NCBI RefSeq assembly: GCF_000203815.1 | Contig: NW_004457735.1 | Location: 186,001 to 250,000, forward strand | Reading direction: 5' to 3' | Length of the DNA stretch: 64,000 nucleotides | From: Cavenderia fasciculata | Taxonomy: Eukaryota; Evosea; Eumycetozoa; Acytosteliales; Cavenderiaceae | Shown here: positions 40,221 to 53,500 of the stretch, in pieces | How the letters are laid out: the number at the start of each line of letters is the position of its first letter | Numbering within the stretch: position 1 is the first letter of the stretch | Translations under genes and position numbers: made by a program | The notes under the pieces: generated by a model | Seen by the model: the letters and a program-made list of their open reading frames with translations, nothing else | Databases searched by the model: none | Told to the model about the DNA's origin: nothing

Positions 40221-42401
40221 ATGAAAGAGAATAATTATTATTTAGACTTTAGAGTAATAATACGTAGTTTTGTATTACGTAAACTTATATTTCAACATGT
40301 ACAAAAGTTAAATAATAGATCGATTGAAGGTGATGCTCAAAGAGGAGTGACATTGTTAAGATGGGAAGAGTTGATGTGTAGACCAATACATTTACTCATT
40401 CAACACAAGTCAATTCAATTGGTTAAAGAGTCTATGAGACTGTATGCACCATATCACCGATTCTTGTTTGATTTGTTGCAGGTAGCAAACGCAAAGAGAT
40501 TGGCTATGGGAAGAAACCCATCAAAGTTGATCGATCTTGCTGCATTACACAACTCGATGGAGCTTTTACTCTACTTTCACAACGAATTTGAATTGGATCT
40601 AATGTCTACAACTGCTGGTCACTCTCAGACTAAAGTATCATCGTGTATAACCGATACTTTGATTGGTGACTTTCCAAAATATGCAAGACAGTCGGCTATG
40701 AGAGCTGCATCTATTCGATTCGAAGTTGAACTAGAACATACTGGTGGTGACATTAAAGAACGATCGTTTGCTACAAAGCTTGCTGTTGCTCATGCCGTAA
40801 AGAACAATAATTTCGAAATGGTCAAGTTCCTCCTAGAGAATCGAAGTGAAGGGTTTGACATGACAGCTATTGACAATGCCACCAAACTAGGACCCTTTTC
40901 CAATTTGAAAATGATCAAATACATGCATGACAAGTGTCCTCTTGCATTTGGTGATGGAGTAGCAGGCTGTCTTGGACCATTTGTATCGGCTGTTAGAGGT
41001 GGATTTGTTCAAGTGGCCGAATGGTTTATTAAACACAAATATTATTTTGACCCAAACCGAACAAATTGGTTGTATATAGATTGGGCAGCCAATTCAAGGA
41101 GTTTGGAAATGGTTAAACTCATGTTTAAACATGGTCTAGTCAATACTAATTGGTACAATGCAGACTTGTACACAAAGATTAGTAATCGTGGTGATTTTGA
41201 TATTCTAGAATATCTAGAAAAAAACCGTCCCCCAAATATACCATCAACAATCAATATAGAGGAAATTAAAAGAGTATCATCAAACCATATAGAGCAAATA
41301 GGACTATTTGAAAAGATCAAAAAGGGAGACATACAAGTATTCAAAAATGACCCATCTAAAATCAAACTATTGGATCTTGGCTACAGTTCGCACATCTTTA
41401 AATATTTGGGTGATTCTGGTGATGTTGATTTCTTTAAAATCCTACACCAACACAATACTCATCCCGGTATCTACAGTTCAACCGAGTTTTTCTATGGTTT
41501 GGTGGATCGTCTCTTGTATCTTCATTATTCAGGTTCGTTGGAGCCGGTGCGAGAAAATGGCTTTTTGGAATGTCTAGACTATCTCTTGGAAAACAAACTC
41601 ATTAGCAGATTGAGTTTTGTCGAAGCTGCCACTGTACATTGGAGTGGTGATGATGACTTGCTTTCTCGGTTCCCTTGGATATCTCATTCGGTGGGTTTGA
41701 TCCCTGAATACAAACTATTCAACATTATTCACAAAAATGCTCTCAAGCCAGCTGGATACAAGCGCATCATCCAAATGCATCTAGAACAACGAACCTTGGG
41801 TACCCCTTTATTTCAAGGATTCAGCTATGCATTCCAATTCGATGTCGATCTCATCAAGAGTATTTATCAATTGGATCAAAGTCCAAAGTTGTTTGCCGAA
41901 TTTACTCTTGCAGGTGTCTTGGAGAAATGCAATAATCCAAAGGTTCTATCGTTCCTAGTTAAAAACAATGTCATACAATTTCCACCAGGTGACTCTATAT
42001 CATCACTATTCCTCACTCAAACCATGCCAGTTCAAAATTTAATTCATCAATTTAACAAACATCAAGAATATCAACCAGAGGCCGAACGTACTACTAGTAG
42101 CAGTATATTCGATCAACATCCAAATCAAATATACCTTTCGTTGGTACATGCCATATCCAAGTACAATTTCAAGAGTATCAATTATATTCTAAAAAATTCT
42201 CCAATCCAACCTTTGGTCGTCATCAAAAGAACTCTTAGTCATTTAAACCCGTCTGATACACTCTTGTCTGGTAGAGAGCCTTCTGTTTGGACAAAATTCT
42301 ATTCTATATACATTCTATTGTTATCTTATGGAATGGACTTACACGATTTTTATTATCTTTTAAAATTACCATTATCTGTTTATACTGCTAATGATATTTA
42401 A
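40221..42401 (+). CDS. Ankyrin-type repeat protein (726 aa)
   Basis: Intronless. The N-terminus has the family box (IRSFVLRKLIFQHVQKLNNR) at residues 12-32. Degenerate ankyrin-type repeats follow from about residue 95: AVKNNNFEMVKFLLENRSEG, AVRGGFVQVAEWFIKHKYYF, AANSRSLEMVKLMFKHGL, ISNRGDFDILEYLEKNRP. The second half is helical without a clear consensus, though it keeps short ankyrin-like echoes (FDVDLIKSIYQL). No signal peptide, membrane segment or catalytic motif. Role: protein binding by family analogy. It starts 174 bp from the divergent helicase stub. Confidence 0.8.
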   Translation: MKENNYYLDFRVIIRSFVLRKLIFQHVQKLNNRSIEGDAQRGVTLLRWEELMCRPIHLLIQHKSIQLVKESMRLYAPYHRFLFDLLQVANAKRLAMGRNPSKLIDLAALHNSMELLLYFHNEFELDLMSTTAGHSQTKVSSCITDTLIGDFPKYARQSAMRAASIRFEVELEHTGGDIKERSFATKLAVAHAVKNNNFEMVKFLLENRSEGFDMTAIDNATKLGPFSNLKMIKYMHDKCPLAFGDGVAGCLGPFVSAVRGGFVQVAEWFIKHKYYFDPNRTNWLYIDWAANSRSLEMVKLMFKHGLVNTNWYNADLYTKISNRGDFDILEYLEKNRPPNIPSTINIEEIKRVSSNHIEQIGLFEKIKKGDIQVFKNDPSKIKLLDLGYSSHIFKYLGDSGDVDFFKILHQHNTHPGIYSSTEFFYGLVDRLLYLHYSGSLEPVRENGFLECLDYLLENKLISRLSFVEAATVHWSGDDDLLSRFPWISHSVGLIPEYKLFNIIHKNALKPAGYKRIIQMHLEQRTLGTPLFQGFSYAFQFDVDLIKSIYQLDQSPKLFAEFTLAGVLEKCNNPKVLSFLVKNNVIQFPPGDSISSLFLTQTMPVQNLIHQFNKHQEYQPEAERTTSSSIFDQHPNQIYLSLVHAISKYNFKSINYILKNSPIQPLVVIKRTLSHLNPSDTLLSGREPSVWTKFYSIYILLLSYGMDLHDFYYLLKLPLSVYTANDI

Positions 42402-42988: not shown

Positions 42989-43500
42989 ATGGAAACCCTC
43001 AATTCCCACCACGAACCACCTAATTTAGATATCCAACACACCGATGAAGAGACATCATTAGAATGCACACACAATCACAAAAGACAGAGACCTATGTCAA
43101 ACGATCAAATGATCGTTCAATCTTCCAATGTTGTCAACGGGTCGACTATTCAAAACCTTCAAGGAGTATCAGCCATCAATGCTGCCATCAATGCTGCCAT
43201 CAATGATGCCATCAATGATGCCATCAATGCTGCCCTTTCCCCCCTCAAGAACAATATCCTTTCGATCGTTCACAACGAAAGGGCCAGAGCAAACAATGCT
43301 CGCGCCTTATTGGGAGGTAGTCCACTTACACCAATCCACAATATAGACAATATTGATCCATCATATTTTCCAGCCACCCGACATGATATGTGGACCTCTC
43401 TCTTGCTCAAGTTAGTAGCATTCTCGATCACTACGGTTTAAACCATGGTCTCCCACCCTCAGTTGAGGAAAAGATCTTAGTGTTGACAATCTTTATCAAC
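42989..43500 (+). mobile_element. Broken repeat-like ORF, possibly retroelement-derived
   Basis: A 150-codon ORF (42989-43441) starts METLNSHHEPPNLDIQHTDE, contains a basic patch KRQRP, a run of five near-identical 12-bp units (43172-43231) and the segment ARANNARALLGG. Coding potential of the same style continues past its end, so the copy looks broken. Style and layout recall ORF1/gag-like proteins of DIRS-type tyrosine-recombinase retroelements of dictyostelids, but I cannot confirm the family. No terminal repeats or enzyme domains are visible next to it. Treat it as a small fossil fragment of uncertain origin. Confidence 0.35.
43172..43231 (+). repeat. Five tandem 12-bp units
   Basis: Units of GCCATCAATG[CA]T repeat five times without gaps, encoding Ala-Ile-Asn-[AD] five times. 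It lies inside the broken ORF. Confidence 0.9.
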
Positions 43501-43612: not shown

Positions 43613-45128
43613 TTATTGTTGTTGATGTTGTTGACCAACAATAACCTTTCGTTGATAAATATATTTCAAGTCTCTTGTTGAACCAATGAATTGAAATTGA
43701 TCGTCTGGAGCATTGAATGTATAAGGAACTGATCTTTTATAAGAATGGTCATGACTGAGAATGATTTTTTGGAGTGTCTTTACGTCGTCTAAATTGTTGA
43801 GAGTTTCACCAGCACCATAGGGATCGACCGATTTAAATGGATATGAGGTGATATCGGGGAAATATCCAATATACACCTTCATTGTGTGAATGGTTGGATT
43901 GTCAATGAGAATCGATCGAAGAGGAACTCTATAAAAGGTTGCCAACTTTTGTAATCGTCCACGTGTGAATCGAATCGATGTGATAAAGTCAATGATATAG
44001 ACCGACTTTAGATTAGGGAATAAATCAATATCTTCGGAATCCTTGAGTGTGATGGTAGTAATATTGCGTTTGACGCTATCTTGCAATTTCTTGATATTAA
44101 AAGTACGTGGTACAATTAATTTACGTAATTGTTGTGATTTGATAGATGATTCATCCAATCCTTTTAAATTTGCTTTTAATAAATCGATTGATGTAATATT
44201 TTTAAAAGTATTCATCCAAGACCAATCTATTGTTGAATTCTCTGATTCATTTTCCCAATATAATGAAACATGTGTTAATGGTGAATCGGAGGAGGAGGAG
44301 TCGGTCTCTGATTCGTTCACTTGATAATGATGAGCAAGACTATTGATGAATAATTGGGCACCTTGGAATCTAGTGAGATTGGTAAACATGGAAGTTGGGA
44401 GTGAGAATAGTTTGTAGGCATTGTCGTCTTCACAAAGTCGAGTGATTCCATTGTACTTGGACATTGTGAATTGACATGGTGACAAGTTAAAACTACCTCT
44501 GGACGAGTGACGATTGATGGTGAGTTGGTTCAACAAATGGTTGGTGACATAATGAAACATGGCACGATTGACCAATCCCAAAGACAACCGTTTGTTGTAT
44601 TCCTTTGGCAAAGGGTAATCACAGATCCTGTACTCTGCATTATCGTCATACTGGGAATGTACCAAACACTCTTGTTTTTGTTTTCTATAATTCCATAATA
44701 CCAGTGGGTTGTCCAACCCATAGTCATGAGGATACACAATATTCTCATCTACCTTGCAACTACACATATGATCTGTATATGATTCCCAACACATTCTTGT
44801 AATCATCTTTAATATATATGTTGGAAATATTGGTCTATCATTATTAATAACATTATTATTATGATTATTATTATTAATATTATTATTTGTTTGGAAATAA
44901 TTAACTTTTAAAATTATTTTTTTGATGGTTGATTGTTGTTTGTAAATTGAACCGTGGTAATCATATCCATACAATTGAAAGAATTCTAATATTGCATCAG
45001 TTACATCTCTTTTATAATCCAATACAATTGTTTCCACTTGTCCATTATTTAAATCTTCAAAATTTGGTAAATCACAAATTACCAAACCACTCTCATCACT
45101 GTCTACTCCAAAATCACTATTAATATTT

Positions 45129-45175
<47 letters not shown>

Positions 45176-46423
45176 ATGTTGTTTAATTCTAATTGATTGA
45201 ATAGTTGAATGATTTCTTGTAATCTTTTTAATTCCTGGGTATAATCCATCGTTGGATTGTGTTATAGTTATCTTGTTGATATTATCAAATGGTAGCAAGT
45301 TGTCATTATAATTATTACTATTATTATTACAATTATTGTATCCAGTTAAATAAAGATGTTGTAACATTATAAATGATTTACCATCTATTTGTTGTTGATG
45401 TTGTTGAGATATCATATGATATGACATTTTGACTACCGATTGTTTAACAATTAATTGAAGATTATCGAGTAATTGAATATTGATAATACTATCATCTGAA
45501 CGTGGTAAGAGTAATTTTCGAATGGGATGGTTTAGGGAGACTGCTAAATCATAAATCTCGCTATGATAATTCTTGTATTTGTAATTGGACAAGTCAAATG
45601 AGACGACTTGATGTGCAAATGGCATGACAAGGTTATGGAAAGATTCCTGGCATTTGAGAGATCCTCTTAACCTTATACTTGACAATCTCGGCATAAGAGG
45701 TGGGAGATTCTTTACATGGTCAAGACTATGTGATTGAAATCCATCATTATCATAGACACCAGTCTCGACCATTAACGATTCAATTTTATCCAATGGATTA
45801 AAAGTTGATTGTGGTAATGATCCAAAACCTCCAAATAAAGAGTCAAATGTATCTGCTGATGTGATAGAGACTGATCGAATCTTTTTCAATGGAGAGTATT
45901 GGTTTTCAATATGACCAATCACTTGATTGACTGCTGGAGTCTTGGGTACTCTAATATGATGGAACAAGGTATTGGCGACAAATGCAAATGATTGTTTACT
46001 GACCAATGCTAATTGTAGTCTCCAACGATACCTATCTGCACTTTGATGATAATAGTTTGATCCGTCGGGACTTGAAAACGGGTTGATTTTCATGCGAGTG
46101 TGGTGTGTTGGGTCGTATTGAATATCCCTCTGCATAAACAACTCTGTATAGATACTATGCATTGGACACGATGCATTGAATCGTCTCCAACGATCGACTA
46201 GTTGCAGCTTAGAGTACAGAGATTGAACATGACTCTGATTGGAATGATTGTTTCGAATCCTTTGAACCAATTGATTTTGACTGTCTGATTCAGAGATTGA
46301 CGTGATACACATACACAAATCAACTCCTCTCCAAGCTTCTTGAAATATTTTACCAATTAACCACCATGGTAAATTTAATTGTTCATCAACATCATGAACT
46401 TGATTGAATGTATTGATTTTCAT
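43613..46423 (-). CDS. F-box-like/LRR-like protein with two CxC-CxxH modules (936 aa)
   Basis: Intronless. Two modules of one kind. Module 1: LPWWLIGKIFQEAW (residues 18-31), C37-x-C39, C86-P-M-H89, then RWRLQLALVSKQSFAFVANT near 135-152. Module 2: FPTYILKMITRMCW near 533, CSC near 554, ECLVH near 586, then RLSLGLVNRAMFHYVTNHLL. The ends of each module look like F-box helices 1 and 3. The inserted C-x-C...C-x-x-H could bind one zinc ion. Each module is followed by 300 or more residues of weak beta/LRR-like repeats (VSLNHPIRKLLLP, DLFPNLKSVYIIDF). PolyN runs break the second segment. F-box proteins of dictyostelids usually recruit SCF ubiquitin-ligase substrates; here that is inference. Confidence 0.75.
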
Positions 46424-46796
46424 TATTCTCTAATACTACTATTTATACAAATGTATTTAATTATTAATAAATTGTCTAAATTAATTTATTATTATTAATA
46501 TTATCAATATTTACCTCTTGTTTAATATTATATATTTTTGATGATTCTTTAAACAAAACAGTGTGTGTGTTTGCATTGGTGGGATATTGTAGACACGACT
46601 AGTATTTAGTGTCCATGATAGACACCAACCGAAACCTATCAAAATCGAAAAAAAAAACAAAACATCCCATTGGATGATTCGTTATGCGATATTCTTTGCC
46701 ATTCTATCTGTCCACCAGTCAAAAAAAAACGAATCAAAATTTGATTTTCGACCAGATGTAGATATATTTAGATCTTTTGTACAGTACCCCAACTGA

Positions 46797-46827
<31 letters not shown>

Positions 46828-47324
46828 GGTTTCGATTATATTAGAATAATAGCTTAGATAGTAATGAGAAGAAAGGTAATAAATGTGATGTACCTACCTA
46901 CCTACCCCATTAATGTGCATTTATACTAGTTGTTGAAATAAGAGAGAAGTATCATCTGTCTGTCTGTCTGTCTAATATCTTATATATTATATGTGTATGT
47001 TGGCTTCTACTTCTGATAGGGTTAAACCTTATCTCTTATAAATAAGGTTGTTATGTTGCATGTTAACACATTGTTATGCACATATAGATAAAATATATCT
47101 ATGAATAATATAGAATTAGATAATGCGTGCAAAACAAATGATCAGCTGTCAGAGGATGAGGCATTTTATTTATTCACTTTTTTAATTAAAATGTTTTTAA
47201 TTGTGAATAAATAAAGATCATGTGACTGACTTGAATGAATATATAGGTATACTATATATCTAAATCCAACTTTCAACGTATTTACGGTCTTTGTTCTTGG
47301 TGAGTATGTTTTTTTAGTTTTTCT
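46424..47324. other. Intergenic, no gene seen
   Basis: AT-rich DNA between two minus-strand paralogues. It holds a run of 28 A (about 46800-46827), TACC and TCTG repeats (46892-46906, 46957-46972) and no ORF with coding character. Confidence 0.6.
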
Positions 47325-47331
47325 CCCATAA
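47325..47331 (+). promoter_or_regulatory. DUSE-like motif CCCATAA
   Basis: In Dictyostelium, many small non-coding RNA genes (snRNA, snoRNA, class I RNA) carry the upstream element DUSE, with core CCCATAA, some 60-65 bp before the transcript. This is the only CCCATAA or reverse complement I noticed in the window. A structured GC-richer stretch follows within 200 bp. Confidence 0.4.
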
Positions 47332-47389
47332 GATATCAATTACTATAAAAAATGTGAAAACTAATCATCTGATACAATATATATCAATT

Positions 47390-47600
47390 CTTGAGGCTTT
47401 GCATGTGCAAATATGGGTGCTTGTTACTTCGAATTCTATCAAATATCATGAAATTTTTCCTTCTAGAAGAAAGAGTCTGTTAACAAAACATCAGTTTATG
47501 TGTAATCAACTACTGCGTATAACCTGAAATCACCTATGGAGTGGTGCCTGCGATAGGCTCCCTCTTGGGTGATTTCAACCCCAAGCCCCGCTGTCACAAC
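47390..47600 (+). ncRNA. Candidate structured non-coding RNA
   Basis: Start set by the usual DUSE distance, end by return to AT-rich DNA. The core is an elaborate hairpin: TGAAATCACC (47525-47534) pairs perfectly with GGTGATTTCA (47568-47577); inside it GGAG (47538-47541) can pair with CTCC, or GCCT (47546-47549) with AGGC around GCGAT. A palindrome TTTGCA-TG-TGCAAA lies near 47398-47411. After the hairpin the sequence is CCCC-rich and includes GTCACA, which could be an ACA box. No match to tRNA, U1-U6, SRP or U3 was found by eye. It could be an H/ACA-like or dictyostelid-specific RNA. Confidence 0.35.
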
Positions 47601-47637
47601 AATCCTTATTATTATTATTATTAATATTTATTATTAA

Positions 47638-50262
47638 TTATTTTCTTTTTTGTGTGAAAATAAATTTAGTTTGATAATTTGTACTTGCAAAGTACTTGTA
47701 GTGATGGGTGTCGATGATGCGTTCAATAGAGGTTGGTAATTGGTTGACTTGATTTTGGCGGGATTTGGAGATGATGATGGTTTGTAGAGTTGGTGGGATG
47801 GTATCTGGAATAGACAAGATTGTATTGGTGATGGTTAGAGATGAATTGATCTTTATAGTTGTAATGGATGGGTTGGCAAGTAATATCTTGTTGATAACCT
47901 CTGGAACAACCATAAAATGTGCAAAACACATTCTGACAATGGTCGGTGGGAATATTGGTGTGAGGATACTAGATCCAGCTATACGGTTGATTGTAATACT
48001 CTTTAGATTTGGGTATTGCTCTGCCATACCTTGTGACTCGTCAATTTGATCGGATGGTTTAAACGAGACTGCTTCAAGTTGTTGTTTGATGGTATTGGGT
48101 AGATGAACGAGCATTGGAGAATCTGCTAAATTGACAAACAACTTTTTGAGATGAATGAGATTTGCAAAGCTTTGCATATCTGTTTCTTTTAGTTTGAGTG
48201 ATGTGTAGGAGCAGTCCAGAGACACTAGTGTACTGTGAGACAACATTTGTGTGAGCCAAACGGACCCATCTGAAAACAATTTGATGTGAGTCAGTTGCTT
48301 GGGGAGTGGGTCGAATGGAGGTAACTCGTATCCTTCATATCGTGTGATAGATGATGCCACACGATTATTATCTGCCAATGATTGATAAAACTCTTTCTTG
48401 TCACGGAAAAAGATGGTTTCCAATCGATTGACATTCTTTAACAGACAATAAGGATTATCAATATGATTTTCGAATCCATCTCTTGAAGCTAAATGATTCG
48501 ACGTGAATAAATTATTACTGATATATTGAAACAAGTTCTTGTTGATAGTTGACAACTCTAATTGTCTTTTCTGTATTTTAATTGGTTCCAAAAACGTTGC
48601 AACTTGATGATACCGATGTAGTGGACATTGTTCAACCATTTGAAGGAATTTAGAAATGATCGATGAACTTCTTAATTCCTCCACCTTTAGACTCTCCCAT
48701 CGATTTAAATCCCAACTACAAGTACAGCGACTATACCCATTCCAGCATTCTTTAATTATTTGATAAATGATTCTATTTGGTAATTTTTGATTATTAATTT
48801 GATTATTATTATTAATATTTTGATTATTTTGATTTTGATTAATTTTAATTATAACCTTTCTATTAAAAGATTTTTTTGAAGATATTAATGAAGCATAAAA
48901 GTTTAAACCTCGATTATTTAAATATTCTATATCATTTTGAAAAAGATCAGAATTGAAATTTAAAATAATGATTGTGTGAACATTTGCCAAATCCTCTGGA
49001 ATTAATTTAATTAATTGTTCAAATGTTCCCAATTTATAAACTAATCGAACTACTTTGATTTGTGGATTGACAGTAAAAAATTGTGATGGTATGAATCCAA
49101 CTCCACTAAATGTTACTCTTTTAATGGTTGATGATAGTTTAATGTTGTCAGATGTGATTGATTGATTGTCAAATTGTAATGGTGAAAGGGGTGGATAAAT
49201 AATGATATGATTTAATTTGGTGAAATGTTGGGTTTCAGATGATAGATTAGAAGATATTCTAAAGCAAGTTGCCTCTAATGACTGTTTGACAATAGTTGGT
49301 AGATCAATTAATACCAAATGATCTACCATGTGAGGTGGTAACAAAAGCTTTTTAAATGGACGTCCTTGGTTGAGTGATGTTAACATGTCTTGTAACTTTG
49401 AATTACTGTCTGTAGCATTATTATCCAATTCTTTTAAAGTGACACGTTGAAAGTCAAATGAATCGACAAATTTAAATGACTTGACAAATAGGTCTAGACG
49501 GGAAGGCAACAACGAGTGTGATACTAGTTTAGTGACATTTGGCATAACCTCTGCCAATAGAGTATAGTCTGTTATTTTACCATACTCATTTTCAAGTTCT
49601 AATTTGGTGACTTTGTTAAACTTTAGATGGTATGGCGAAATGGTCGACTCCAAAGGTTGTACTAGGTCCATGAATCTTTGTAGACTGAATACACTTAGTT
49701 TAGTGTATCCATTACTACTACTAACCCATGACTTGTTGTAGGAGCTGAGGTCAAAGTCAAGAGAGACACTATTAAACAAATGACCTTTGATAAAACCAGC
49801 AACTTGTTTGGAGATGGTAGCAAGATTTAGACGCCATTTATACCTATCATTGTCATAGTAGGTGTTGAATAGATTGGAAGAAGTGACTGGTGAAGGTTTT
49901 TGGTTGTTGTTGTTGTTGTTGGAGTTGTTGGTGTTGTTGTTTATTTCATCCATTCCACCTTTATAATGGTAGATTGGATTATCAAAGTAGTTGGTTTGAT
50001 TGTATAGCGAGTGAAGTGGACATGATGCATTGTATCTCTTCAAATAGCTCAAGTGCTGTAGATACTGTAATGGATGATAAGTCAACATTTTCTCTCTTAT
50101 ACTACTCTCGTACAATGTGTATCGAAACGGTCTAGTTGACTGATCATCAATAACACATGTACAATAATCTATACTCTTCCAAGCAATCTCTAGTATACGA
50201 TTAATTATAAATGTTGGTAGCCTACCATCACTACCACTACCATCACTACTACTTGTACACAT
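47638..50262 (-). CDS. F-box-like/LRR-like protein with two CxC-CxxH modules (874 aa)
   Basis: Intronless paralogue of the 936-residue protein 1.2 kb downstream on the same strand. Module 1: LPTFIINRILEIAW (residues 15-28), C34-T-C36, C81-P-L-H84, then KWRLNLATISKQVAGFIKGH (142-160). Module 2: LPNRIIYQIIKECW (494-507), C513-T-C515, C546-P-L-H549, then RQLELSTINKNLFQYISNNL. Between and after the modules lie beta/LRR-like stretches (VDSFDFQRVTLKEL, NLKSITINRIAGSS). PolyN at about 110-120 and 478-492. Same reading as for its neighbour: an F-box-like adaptor with an embedded possible zinc site. No TM or signal sequence. Confidence 0.75.
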   Translation of the reverse strand: MCTSSSDGSGSDGRLPTFIINRILEIAWKSIDYCTCVIDDQSTRPFRYTLYESSIREKMLTYHPLQYLQHLSYLKRYNASCPLHSLYNQTNYFDNPIYHYKGGMDEINNNTNNSNNNNNNQKPSPVTSSNLFNTYYDNDRYKWRLNLATISKQVAGFIKGHLFNSVSLDFDLSSYNKSWVSSSNGYTKLSVFSLQRFMDLVQPLESTISPYHLKFNKVTKLELENEYGKITDYTLLAEVMPNVTKLVSHSLLPSRLDLFVKSFKFVDSFDFQRVTLKELDNNATDSNSKLQDMLTSLNQGRPFKKLLLPPHMVDHLVLIDLPTIVKQSLEATCFRISSNLSSETQHFTKLNHIIIYPPLSPLQFDNQSITSDNIKLSSTIKRVTFSGVGFIPSQFFTVNPQIKVVRLVYKLGTFEQLIKLIPEDLANVHTIIILNFNSDLFQNDIEYLNNRGLNFYASLISSKKSFNRKVIIKINQNQNNQNINNNNQINNQKLPNRIIYQIIKECWNGYSRCTCSWDLNRWESLKVEELRSSSIISKFLQMVEQCPLHRYHQVATFLEPIKIQKRQLELSTINKNLFQYISNNLFTSNHLASRDGFENHIDNPYCLLKNVNRLETIFFRDKKEFYQSLADNNRVASSITRYEGYELPPFDPLPKQLTHIKLFSDGSVWLTQMLSHSTLVSLDCSYTSLKLKETDMQSFANLIHLKKLFVNLADSPMLVHLPNTIKQQLEAVSFKPSDQIDESQGMAEQYPNLKSITINRIAGSSILTPIFPPTIVRMCFAHFMVVPEVINKILLANPSITTIKINSSLTITNTILSIPDTIPPTLQTIIISKSRQNQVNQLPTSIERIIDTHHYKYFASTNYQTKFIFTQKRK

Positions 50263-50573: not shown

Positions 50574-53500
50574 ATGGATACAACATTCTATTCAATATTT
50601 AGAGTATTGACAATTAGATTAGTAATATTTAGAAATGTTACGGTTATACATCAAAGGATTAAAGATGCACATGCTGATGACAAGACTATAGGACTGAGAT
50701 TGAGTAGTCCAAAAGTTAAAGTAAATAATGATTTGGAGATTAGAAAGGGAAAAGAGTTCCACACCTATATCAATCTATACGAATCGTTACGATTTGGAAG
50801 AACAGACTTGTTTTTCAAATACTACAACTCGATGATTGTAGACGGTGCTGATCAAGAATACCAAGACAATCAATTTAGAAATGATACAGAGTTGGCAATC
50901 GTCGAATCAAAAGACGGTAATGGAAAAGTCAAGACCTACAGTAAATTGGATGAAACAAACGGTGACATCCTACCATACCCAGTCAAACCACTGACACTCA
51001 TTCAAAGATCGATGGTCTATTTTACAGTGGCACTGTATACCAATAATATACCTCTATTACATTATTTAATCGATAGACTTGGTCTGACGTCGAATTACTG
51101 TCAACATTGTCAAGATCATCATATGACTGGATTGTCAAGATGTGTTAGTCGCAAGGATAGGGATAAGGATATCCCATGTCACAACCATCAAATGATTACA
51201 TTCTTTAATACTCACGAAGCACTTAGTTTAATGCCGGGTCCACAAAATGTGCATGTCGATACAGTTAAACTTCTTTTAGAAGAATATAATCTAACTGCTA
51301 TTTTGGCAATACAACCATTGGTATCGGCAGTTTTAATCAAGTGTGTGGTTAAATGTGATGTTGAAGCATTGCAATTAGTCCATACAAAGGTATCAAACAA
51401 GCCTGCTGTGACGGCAGCAGAGTGGAATGGAGAGAGTGACGGAAGTGAATATAGCGGACATGGTAGCTCGTCTGCATCTGACCAATCATCATTCTACGGG
51501 TCACCTGCCAAGGGCGTGTTAAAGGCGTTTCATTTGTTTCTCGAGAAACGACCTGCATCCGAGATACTACCCATTCTCAAGTACTGGACAGAGAACCGTG
51601 TTGGCTCGGTCGAGTGGAGTCAGGTGTTTAGAAGTACGTGTAGTCAACGTGACCGCGATGGAAACAACTATGACTCGGTATTTGACTATATGCACGAGGA
51701 AGGAGTGATTACCAAGATGAAAGCAACCTATACCATCCCGAGTGGAGTGTGTACACAGTCGATGCATATCACCAAAATGCTATTCCAACATTATGGTCAA
51801 ATGATGAATCGGTACGCTACCAACTTGTACGCCGGTGCAGTCTCTAGTGGTAATTGCGAGGTTGTCAAATACATCTATGACAATCACAACACCTACAATC
51901 TACCTCCAACTCTTTTAAACGATGCACTTGAAAGAGGTCATGTTGCAATGGCCTATACCCTCATACATGATATTTGGCCAATTAAAACTATACTAGATAG
52001 TAGTAGTGATAGTAGTGAAAGTAGTAGTGATGGTGGTAGTGATGGTGAAAGTCTTACAGAACATTCAAGCGAGGAGGAAGAGGAAGAAGAAGAAGAGGAG
52101 AGTGAAGGTAGTAATAGTAGTCGTCATAGTATAACAATCAAACAATCAAGAAAATACATTAGCAACAAACATCGTCGTCGATCAAAAGCAAAAAAAGTAC
52201 CCAAAGAAGAAGTAATTGTTAAATGGTCAGCCAAAACAATTAAATCAAATAGTGTACATTTACAATTTGTCAATTCAATACTAGAACAACATGAACGTGT
52301 AAATTGTACATTTGAAAAGGTGTATGGCAAGGCAATCAAAGCTAAACAATTTGATGTAGTTGCTAGAATAGACCAGATTATGAGTCTGTGTCTAGCACCA
52401 TGGTATCAAACCTTTAAAATTGACTATCACTATGCATTGGTACAAGCCGTCAAGATTGGACACATAGAATTGGTAGAGACAATCATTACAAGTCATCATC
52501 CAAAGTTTATCGTTTCACACAATAATTATCGACTATTTACAGAGACGGCGATTGGTTTGGAAATATTTAGAATCATTGCATCAAGATCGAATCCTGGTGA
52601 TTTGTTTGTTGATTTTGGAAGTAATAGTAATTTTTGGTATCATCCAGAGATTCCAAGATTACTATTCAAATACAAACATTATCAATCCTACCTAGATGAA
52701 CCAAATCAAATTAAAAGAAAACCAGTAAGAAGAGCACCTACAGACACTGAAAGCGAAAGCGAGAGTAGTTCAAGTGAATCTACTAGCTCAATGGAAGATT
52801 CCTATTCATCGAGTTCACCACAAAGAATTCCACCAATGATCAAACAAAGTAAATTATTTAAAATTGCTATCATTGGTAATGATATTGAAGCTGTTCAATT
52901 ATTACAACCTACAAATCAATTTTTTGATATTAATGATATTATTGGTAAATAGAAAAAGAAAAAAGAAAAAAAGAATCATATTTATTAATTTAATTATTTA
53001 TTTGATTTTTAGGAATTGGATGTGAAACTGGTAATTTAGAAATGATAAAATGTTTAATTAAATTGGGATACCCAGTAACCAAATTAGTTTCATTGATTGA
53101 TAGTTGTGGTGAATGTAAAGATCGTGACAAGGCATTTGAAATGGTTTATTATTTTATCGATCATTTCAACTATCGTTTGAAAAGGGATGATATGTTGTCT
53201 GCTGTTACTCTATTTTCAGATCCACCATTTGAACAACACACTATTGGTTTATCAAGTATACTACAAAAATCACAACAACAACAACAAGACGATGTTACCT
53301 CTCCATCTAAAAGAAATTTTGGTGTATTTATAAAATATTTGATTGCAAAGTTGGACAAGGAATTCCAAGATACTAAATCAAAACCATATCAAGAACCAGT
53401 TGATGAGTTTGCTCCTCTACCTCCTCCTTCTTCTTCTTCTCATCATCTTCCTCCACCACTACAATTTAAAGTAATGCCTAAAAAAGAATATAATGCATCA

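Follow-up and report, generated by a model that had tools for sequence, protein, structure and literature searches.

Two adjacent genes of Cavenderia fasciculata raise the question of whether an F-box can be split by an insert that carries a metal-type site of its own. They lie in a window of 64,000 nucleotides (positions 186,001 to 250,000 of contig NW_004457735.1, hereafter C3) of a genome of 30,995,898 bases in 21 contigs. They encode proteins A and B, and each protein carries two copies of one module, in which F-box-like outer parts enclose three cysteines and one histidine (Cys3His). In this study, we found that the module is a real, conserved F-box-like variant with Cys3His in its insert, undescribed as far as our searches show. 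We read the two proteins as tandem receptors of the Skp1-cullin-F-box (SCF) ubiquitin ligase, similar to F-box proteins with leucine-rich repeats (LRR), in which the split F-box holds a Cys3His site for what is most likely zinc. The probability of this reading is, in our estimate, about 0.6.

Two proteins with doubled modules and a conserved Cys/His set

Protein A (936 residues; 43613..46423) and protein B (874 residues; 47638..50262) are both encoded by single open reading frames (ORFs) on the reverse strand. The architecture of each chain is a module followed by LRR-like repeats, twice over, and in the window only these two proteins exceeded the threshold of the module profile. Module A1 covers residues 12-157 (45953..46390; profile score 83.4) with C37/C39/C86/H89, and A2 covers residues 526-633 (44525..44848; score 78.7) with C554/C556/C586/H589. 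In protein B, B1 covers residues 12-166 (49765..50229; score 89.7) with C34/C36/C81/H84, and B2 covers residues 485-588 (48499..48810; score 92.6) with C513/C515/C546/H549. From the motif positions and conserved columns, the Cys3His stretches, first Cys to His, lie at 46157..46315 (A1), 44657..44764 (A2), 50011..50163 (B1), and 48616..48726 (B2), all on the reverse strand. Within a module, an F-box-like helix 1 (LPxxIIxxIxxxW) leads to C-x-C; a loop of variable length separates this pair from C-P-x-H, and a linker connects the latter to a helix 2/3 part (RxxLxLISKxxFxxI). The two pairs are separated by 46, 29, 44, and 30 residues in A1, A2, B1, and B2, respectively, and the second pair of A2 is C-L-V-H. 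The original prediction of two neighbouring 936- and 874-residue proteins with two modules each was thus correct, since both ORFs are present and all four copies contain C-x-C...C-x-x-H; the Cys/His positions it gave for the first copies were also right.

We then examined whether homologues keep the Cys/His set. A seed of 37 modules was gathered by a pattern demanding CxC and CxxH, and the invariance of the Cys/His residues in the seed alignment is by construction because of that pattern. In the test profile, which is still based on the seeds, the four Cys/His columns were set to X, and all frames of 60 loci of the same genome were searched with it. The masked profile gave 89 non-redundant matches in the 60 loci, comprising 78 complete modules and 11 incomplete ones that were left out of the counts. 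In the complete modules, the aligned columns contained Cys in 77, Cys in 77, Cys in 76, and His in 76, and the four residues were in register together in 76 of the 78. Only Ile18, present in 78/78, was more conserved than these columns, and the next most Cys-rich column had Cys in 10/78. With one representative per cluster, the set was in register in 57/59 modules at 70% identity, 32/34 at 50%, and 19/21 at 40%. These results indicate that the Cys/His set is conserved across the family, as had been expected of the homologues.

Two complete modules were exceptions. The module at C10:237582 shows C, C, W, and G in the four columns; CxC is present and CLIH occurs further on, and the module is probably misaligned with its motifs out of register. 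The module at C2:1538507 has lost all four residues. It belongs to locus L034 (G000:C2:1537235-1538950), where the second, incomplete module also lacks the set, and this locus may be free of the requirement or decaying. Among the incomplete matches, the three that start at or before CxC (L028, L034, and L048) lack CxC, and the remaining ones are end-clipped. In the alignment of the 78 modules, the two pairs are 11 to 71 residues apart, and the second pair precedes the ISK helix by 21 to 67 residues.

Relation of the modules to the F-box

The outer parts of the module had been likened to F-box helices. When intact sequences were scanned, a Pfam F-box model matched none of 12 whole family proteins and one of 37 modules (E value 0.11), and the curated cut-offs were not reached. 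As intact proteins and modules remained below the cut-offs of PF00646 and PF12937, we call the module F-box-like and do not file it as a member. A long insert following helix 1 would explain such a miss, and inserts are described as hampering F-box detection (PMC9485057). The 37 intact modules otherwise matched 20 Pfam families in scattered single or double matches, including the CHC2 zinc finger of DnaG twice (E 0.048) and PigL_N once (E 0.0018); none of these stands out.

The modules were therefore compared with 20 ordinary F-boxes encoded in this genome, profile to profile (hhalign), after excision of the insert. An excision that kept the F-box spacing gave a probability of 76% (E 2.2e-5 for one comparison) over 36 gap-free columns, and none of 300 column shuffles equalled it; by subset, LPW-type modules alone gave 36% and the others 75%. 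Across 32 join points, the real scores were 15.8 to 23.9 (median 16.4), all above the best of each of 15 shuffled versions (maximum 12.8). A scan of 30 excised modules against 24,736 Pfam models matched F-box-like in 3/30 (best E 5.1e-4) and F-box in 3/30 (best E 1.8e-3). No other Pfam family recurred, three being found once each. The F-box register of helix 1 (LPxxI..I) and helix 2/3 (L..[VI][CS]K..) appears only with the insert cut out. These results suggest that F-box ancestry of the modules is likely, not proven: without the insert, the outer parts align in register with F-boxes from this genome, and the intact modules stay below the Pfam F-box cut-offs.

Some results weigh against this conclusion. 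A cruder excision gave a probability of 15% and a score of 15.9, compared with a best score of 14.8 among 60 shuffles, and we report both excisions because the spacing-keeping cut was chosen with the F-box in mind; the comparison across 32 join points serves as a check on that choice. A profile search of PDB sequences with the excised alignment returned five matches (best E 0.21), none of them an F-box. The same search with the 37-module alignment returned two matches, DNA primase and Mdm38 (both E 0.22), which were taken as chance. In genome-wide searches with F-box models, none of the 80 and 106 matches listed fell, by eye, on a family gene. In favour of the F-box reading, Skp1 is present in the genome (two matches).

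The predicted structures were of low confidence. For the four window modules, AlphaFold2 gave a mean predicted local distance difference test (pLDDT) value of 43.2 and a predicted template modelling score of 0.24, with 140 of 162 module residues below pLDDT 50. In a model of the second half of protein B, nearly all of residues 1-179 were below 50. Both predictions place helices at the two ends of the module, mostly at pLDDT below 50. The protein B model, again at low confidence, has strands about every 25 residues in repeat region 2 (47641..48498, reverse strand; block pLDDT 42 to 80), suggestive of an LRR-like solenoid. When this model was searched with Foldseek, the four best PDB matches were TIR1 and SKP2, two each, with low template modelling scores. 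An LRR-like fold of the repeats is thus moderately supported by the models. Repeat region 1 of protein B (48811..49764) and regions 1 and 2 of protein A (44849..45952 and 43616..44524), all on the reverse strand, are called LRR-like by analogy only; region 1 of protein A, between its modules, contains Asn/Gln-rich low-complexity stretches.

It is also conceivable that the module has no kinship with the F-box and is a helical domain that binds metal, that its LPxxI...ISK pattern is mere resemblance, and that the proteins are LRR adaptors independent of Skp1. The absence of an F-box match in the 12 whole proteins, the best E of 0.11 among the 37 intact modules, the PDB profile search without an F-box chain, and the low confidence of the module models agree with this alternative. 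We nevertheless consider it doubtful, since the gap-free register match to F-boxes of the same genome exceeds its shuffles, the excised modules recur only in Pfam F-box models, and the downstream domain finds its first likeness, weakly, in F-box/LRR receptors.

The F-box/LRR proteins SKP2, TIR1, and Ctf13, with their F-box or F-box-like domains (PF00646, PF12937), resemble the family in the LPxxI..I of helix 1, in the L..[IV][SC]K.. of helix 2/3, and in the LRR-like solenoid that follows the F-box-like unit. The family differs in its long insert with conserved Cys3His and in having two F-box-like units per chain. The original prediction regarded an F-box split by a possible zinc knuckle as unfamiliar. 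F-boxes with insertions between their helices have been recorded for Ctf13, Amn1, and others (PMC9485057), and in the F-box/LRR protein Ctf13 the domain surrounding the F-box is described as expanded (PMC5771398). What is new is therefore the conserved Cys3His in the insert, and not the insert as such. A search of the open-access literature, in the text portions it covers, found no account of the module, nor of any F-box whose insert carries Cys3His, which does not prove absence from print.

Nature of the Cys3His site

We propose a metal clamp because the Cys/His pairs are fixed around a loop of free length. In the split F-box that we favour, the three Cys and the His would most likely coordinate a single zinc ion, which would pin the variable loop at its base and hold the helices on either side of it together. 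Skp1 would be bound by the module in the manner of an F-box, and target proteins would be captured by the more rapidly changing solenoids for SCF-type ubiquitination and degradation. A previous report on Dictyostelium listed Skp1 interaction candidates, 38 of which have predicted F-box-like sequences when the helices may be separated by insertions, and 24 of these 38 carry LRR or other receptor-like domains (PMC9485057). The proposal therefore fits known biology.

The insert had originally been taken for a possible zinc knuckle. The CCHC knuckle has the signature C-x2-C-x4-H-x4-C, which the modules do not match; one of 37 modules had a weak match to zf-CCHC_6 (E 0.21), and the knuckle assignment was abandoned. 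The SWIM zinc finger (PF04434), with the signature C-x-C-x(n)-C-x-H, shares with the module a CxC that is followed by C and then H. However, the second pair of the family is C-x-x-H (in the four window modules and, by aligned columns, in 76/78), whereas that of SWIM is C-x-H. SWIM was not among the Pfam matches listed for family proteins or modules, and the seven SWIM matches in the genome all lie away from family loci.

The site might carry a [2Fe-2S] cluster instead of zinc, which would make the adaptor a switch responsive to oxygen, redox state, or iron. CDGSH/NEET proteins bind such a cluster with the signature C-x-C...C-D-G-[SAT]-H, and the CxC...C..H of the family has the same Cys3His ligands in the same order. 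The spacing differs, since CDGSH/NEET proteins have C-x-x-x-H and the family has C-x-x-H, mostly C-P-x-H, without the CDG; its loop is also longer and varies from 11 to 71 residues. A report on FBXL5, likewise an F-box/LRR receptor with a metal cofactor, places a 2Fe-2S cluster in the LRR domain and a di-iron centre in a hemerythrin-like domain, neither of them inside the F-box (PMC12475580), and oxygen-dependent control of the Dictyostelium SCF system has been described (PMC9485057). The cluster is quite improbable in our view, given the spacing, the missing signature, and the variable loop. In sites of this kind, zinc is also the commoner metal.

Another possibility is that the Cys and His residues are kept for disulfides or packing without any metal, and this is very improbable. 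The near-exclusive Cys/Cys/Cys/His occupancy and the one joint loss of all four residues are typical of a metal site. The two ORFs start with MKINTF... and MCTSSS... and have, by eye, no evident signal sequence, so disulfides are unexpected.

Family history and biological meaning

Genome searches with proteins A and B gave 35 and 43 matches, and three relatives used as queries gave 64, 59, and 47. The pooled matches of the five queries occupy 15 contigs in 44 clusters and comprise at least 99 non-overlapping stretches, at least 50 of them 1.5 kb or longer. These counts are lower bounds, in which some short, weak, or repeated rows were left out, only the best candidates were scored, and genes and fragments are mixed. 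Tandem arrays occur, for example at C16:9-46 kb (14 stretches) and C21:885-903 kb (7 stretches). The dense array at G000:C16:9050-45703 includes several copies with in-frame stops. At G000:C21:884785-890643, the adjacent family genes L015 and L050 are identical, in protein and codons, across a 340-residue part of the first repeat region and are 83%, 93%, and 59% identical in the other regions, which may reflect gene conversion or an assembly artefact. In viral contigs, the protein B query returned 42 and the close sub-alignment A3 53 pattern stretches without a relative, and bacterial and archaeal genomes returned 18 stretches, also without a relative, in searches that reach close relatives only.

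A tree was built from 46 of the 78 modules, those of the 23 frames with two complete modules. Its best split (support 0.945) divided first from second modules for 43/46, and the exceptions, the three second modules from the C16 array, were placed elsewhere. The mean identity was 0.32 among first modules, 0.32 among second modules, and 0.21 between first and second. Owing to this separation and lower identity, the internal duplication of the chain probably predates the spread of the family. We further compared 29 pairs in four close groups, drawn from 17 of 24 prepared proteins. The module was more alike than the repeats downstream of it in 26/29 pairs for the first half and in 29/29 for the second, and the nonsynonymous rate was below the synonymous rate in 58/58 module comparisons. 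Judged from the sequences, a conserved docking module with faster-changing repeats would be expected of a substrate-receptor family. That the family consists of decaying duplicates whose motif reflects merely common descent is scarcely credible, because the in-frame stops in a number of matches, also seen in birth-and-death families, are set against complete two-module frames of 747 to 1014 residues, the rates just given, and the motif in register among cluster representatives at 50% and 40% identity.

FNIP-repeat proteins (PF05725) are likewise a large dictyostelid family with LRR-type repeats. No FNIP match was found in 12 family proteins, no significant match of the family module in the four FNIP stretches read, and the FNIP matches listed belong to genes other than those of the family. 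A 'Zinc finger, B-box domain and FNIP repeat-containing protein' family has 55 members in D. fasciculatum (PMC4334915). One FNIP protein, L088 (G000:C18:1555300-1557400), has by eye an F-box-like start, LPFTILKEIYNYL...TCKRL, and 708 bases separate the end of its last listed FNIP match from the frame of a family member at C18:1557860. This adjacency suggests a common origin or a shared neighbourhood of FNIP and family genes.

Within the window, G+C ranges from 0.26 to 0.44 in 2-kb steps, and the ORFs are Asn-rich. Genes A and B are flanked by ankyrin-repeat ORFs on the forward strand, a clear one at 40221-42401 (E 7.6e-9) and a weak one at 50574-52952. The latter contains, by eye, a Cys/His-rich stretch, YCQHCQDHHMTGLSRC...CHNH, which may be another metal site. 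A forward-strand ORF of 150 residues at 42989-43441 has a short internal repeat of the INAAINDAIN type and no Pfam match.

A bolder possibility, to which we give slim odds, is that these proteins form a new class of F-box with a Cys3His metal clamp in the Skp1-binding domain, doubled in each chain, in a fast-evolving, tandem-arrayed repertoire of 50 to 100 copies that is confined to a single lineage of amoebae. These receptors could recognise and destroy proteins that are foreign or non-self, and the metal or redox state could gate the entry of each receptor into the ubiquitin ligase. A conserved metal-type site in the insert, if true, would show how an F-box tolerates insertion, and Skp1 binding could become dependent on metal or redox state. 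It would also add to a dictyostelid genome a large set of probable SCF receptors that the Pfam models scanned have missed.

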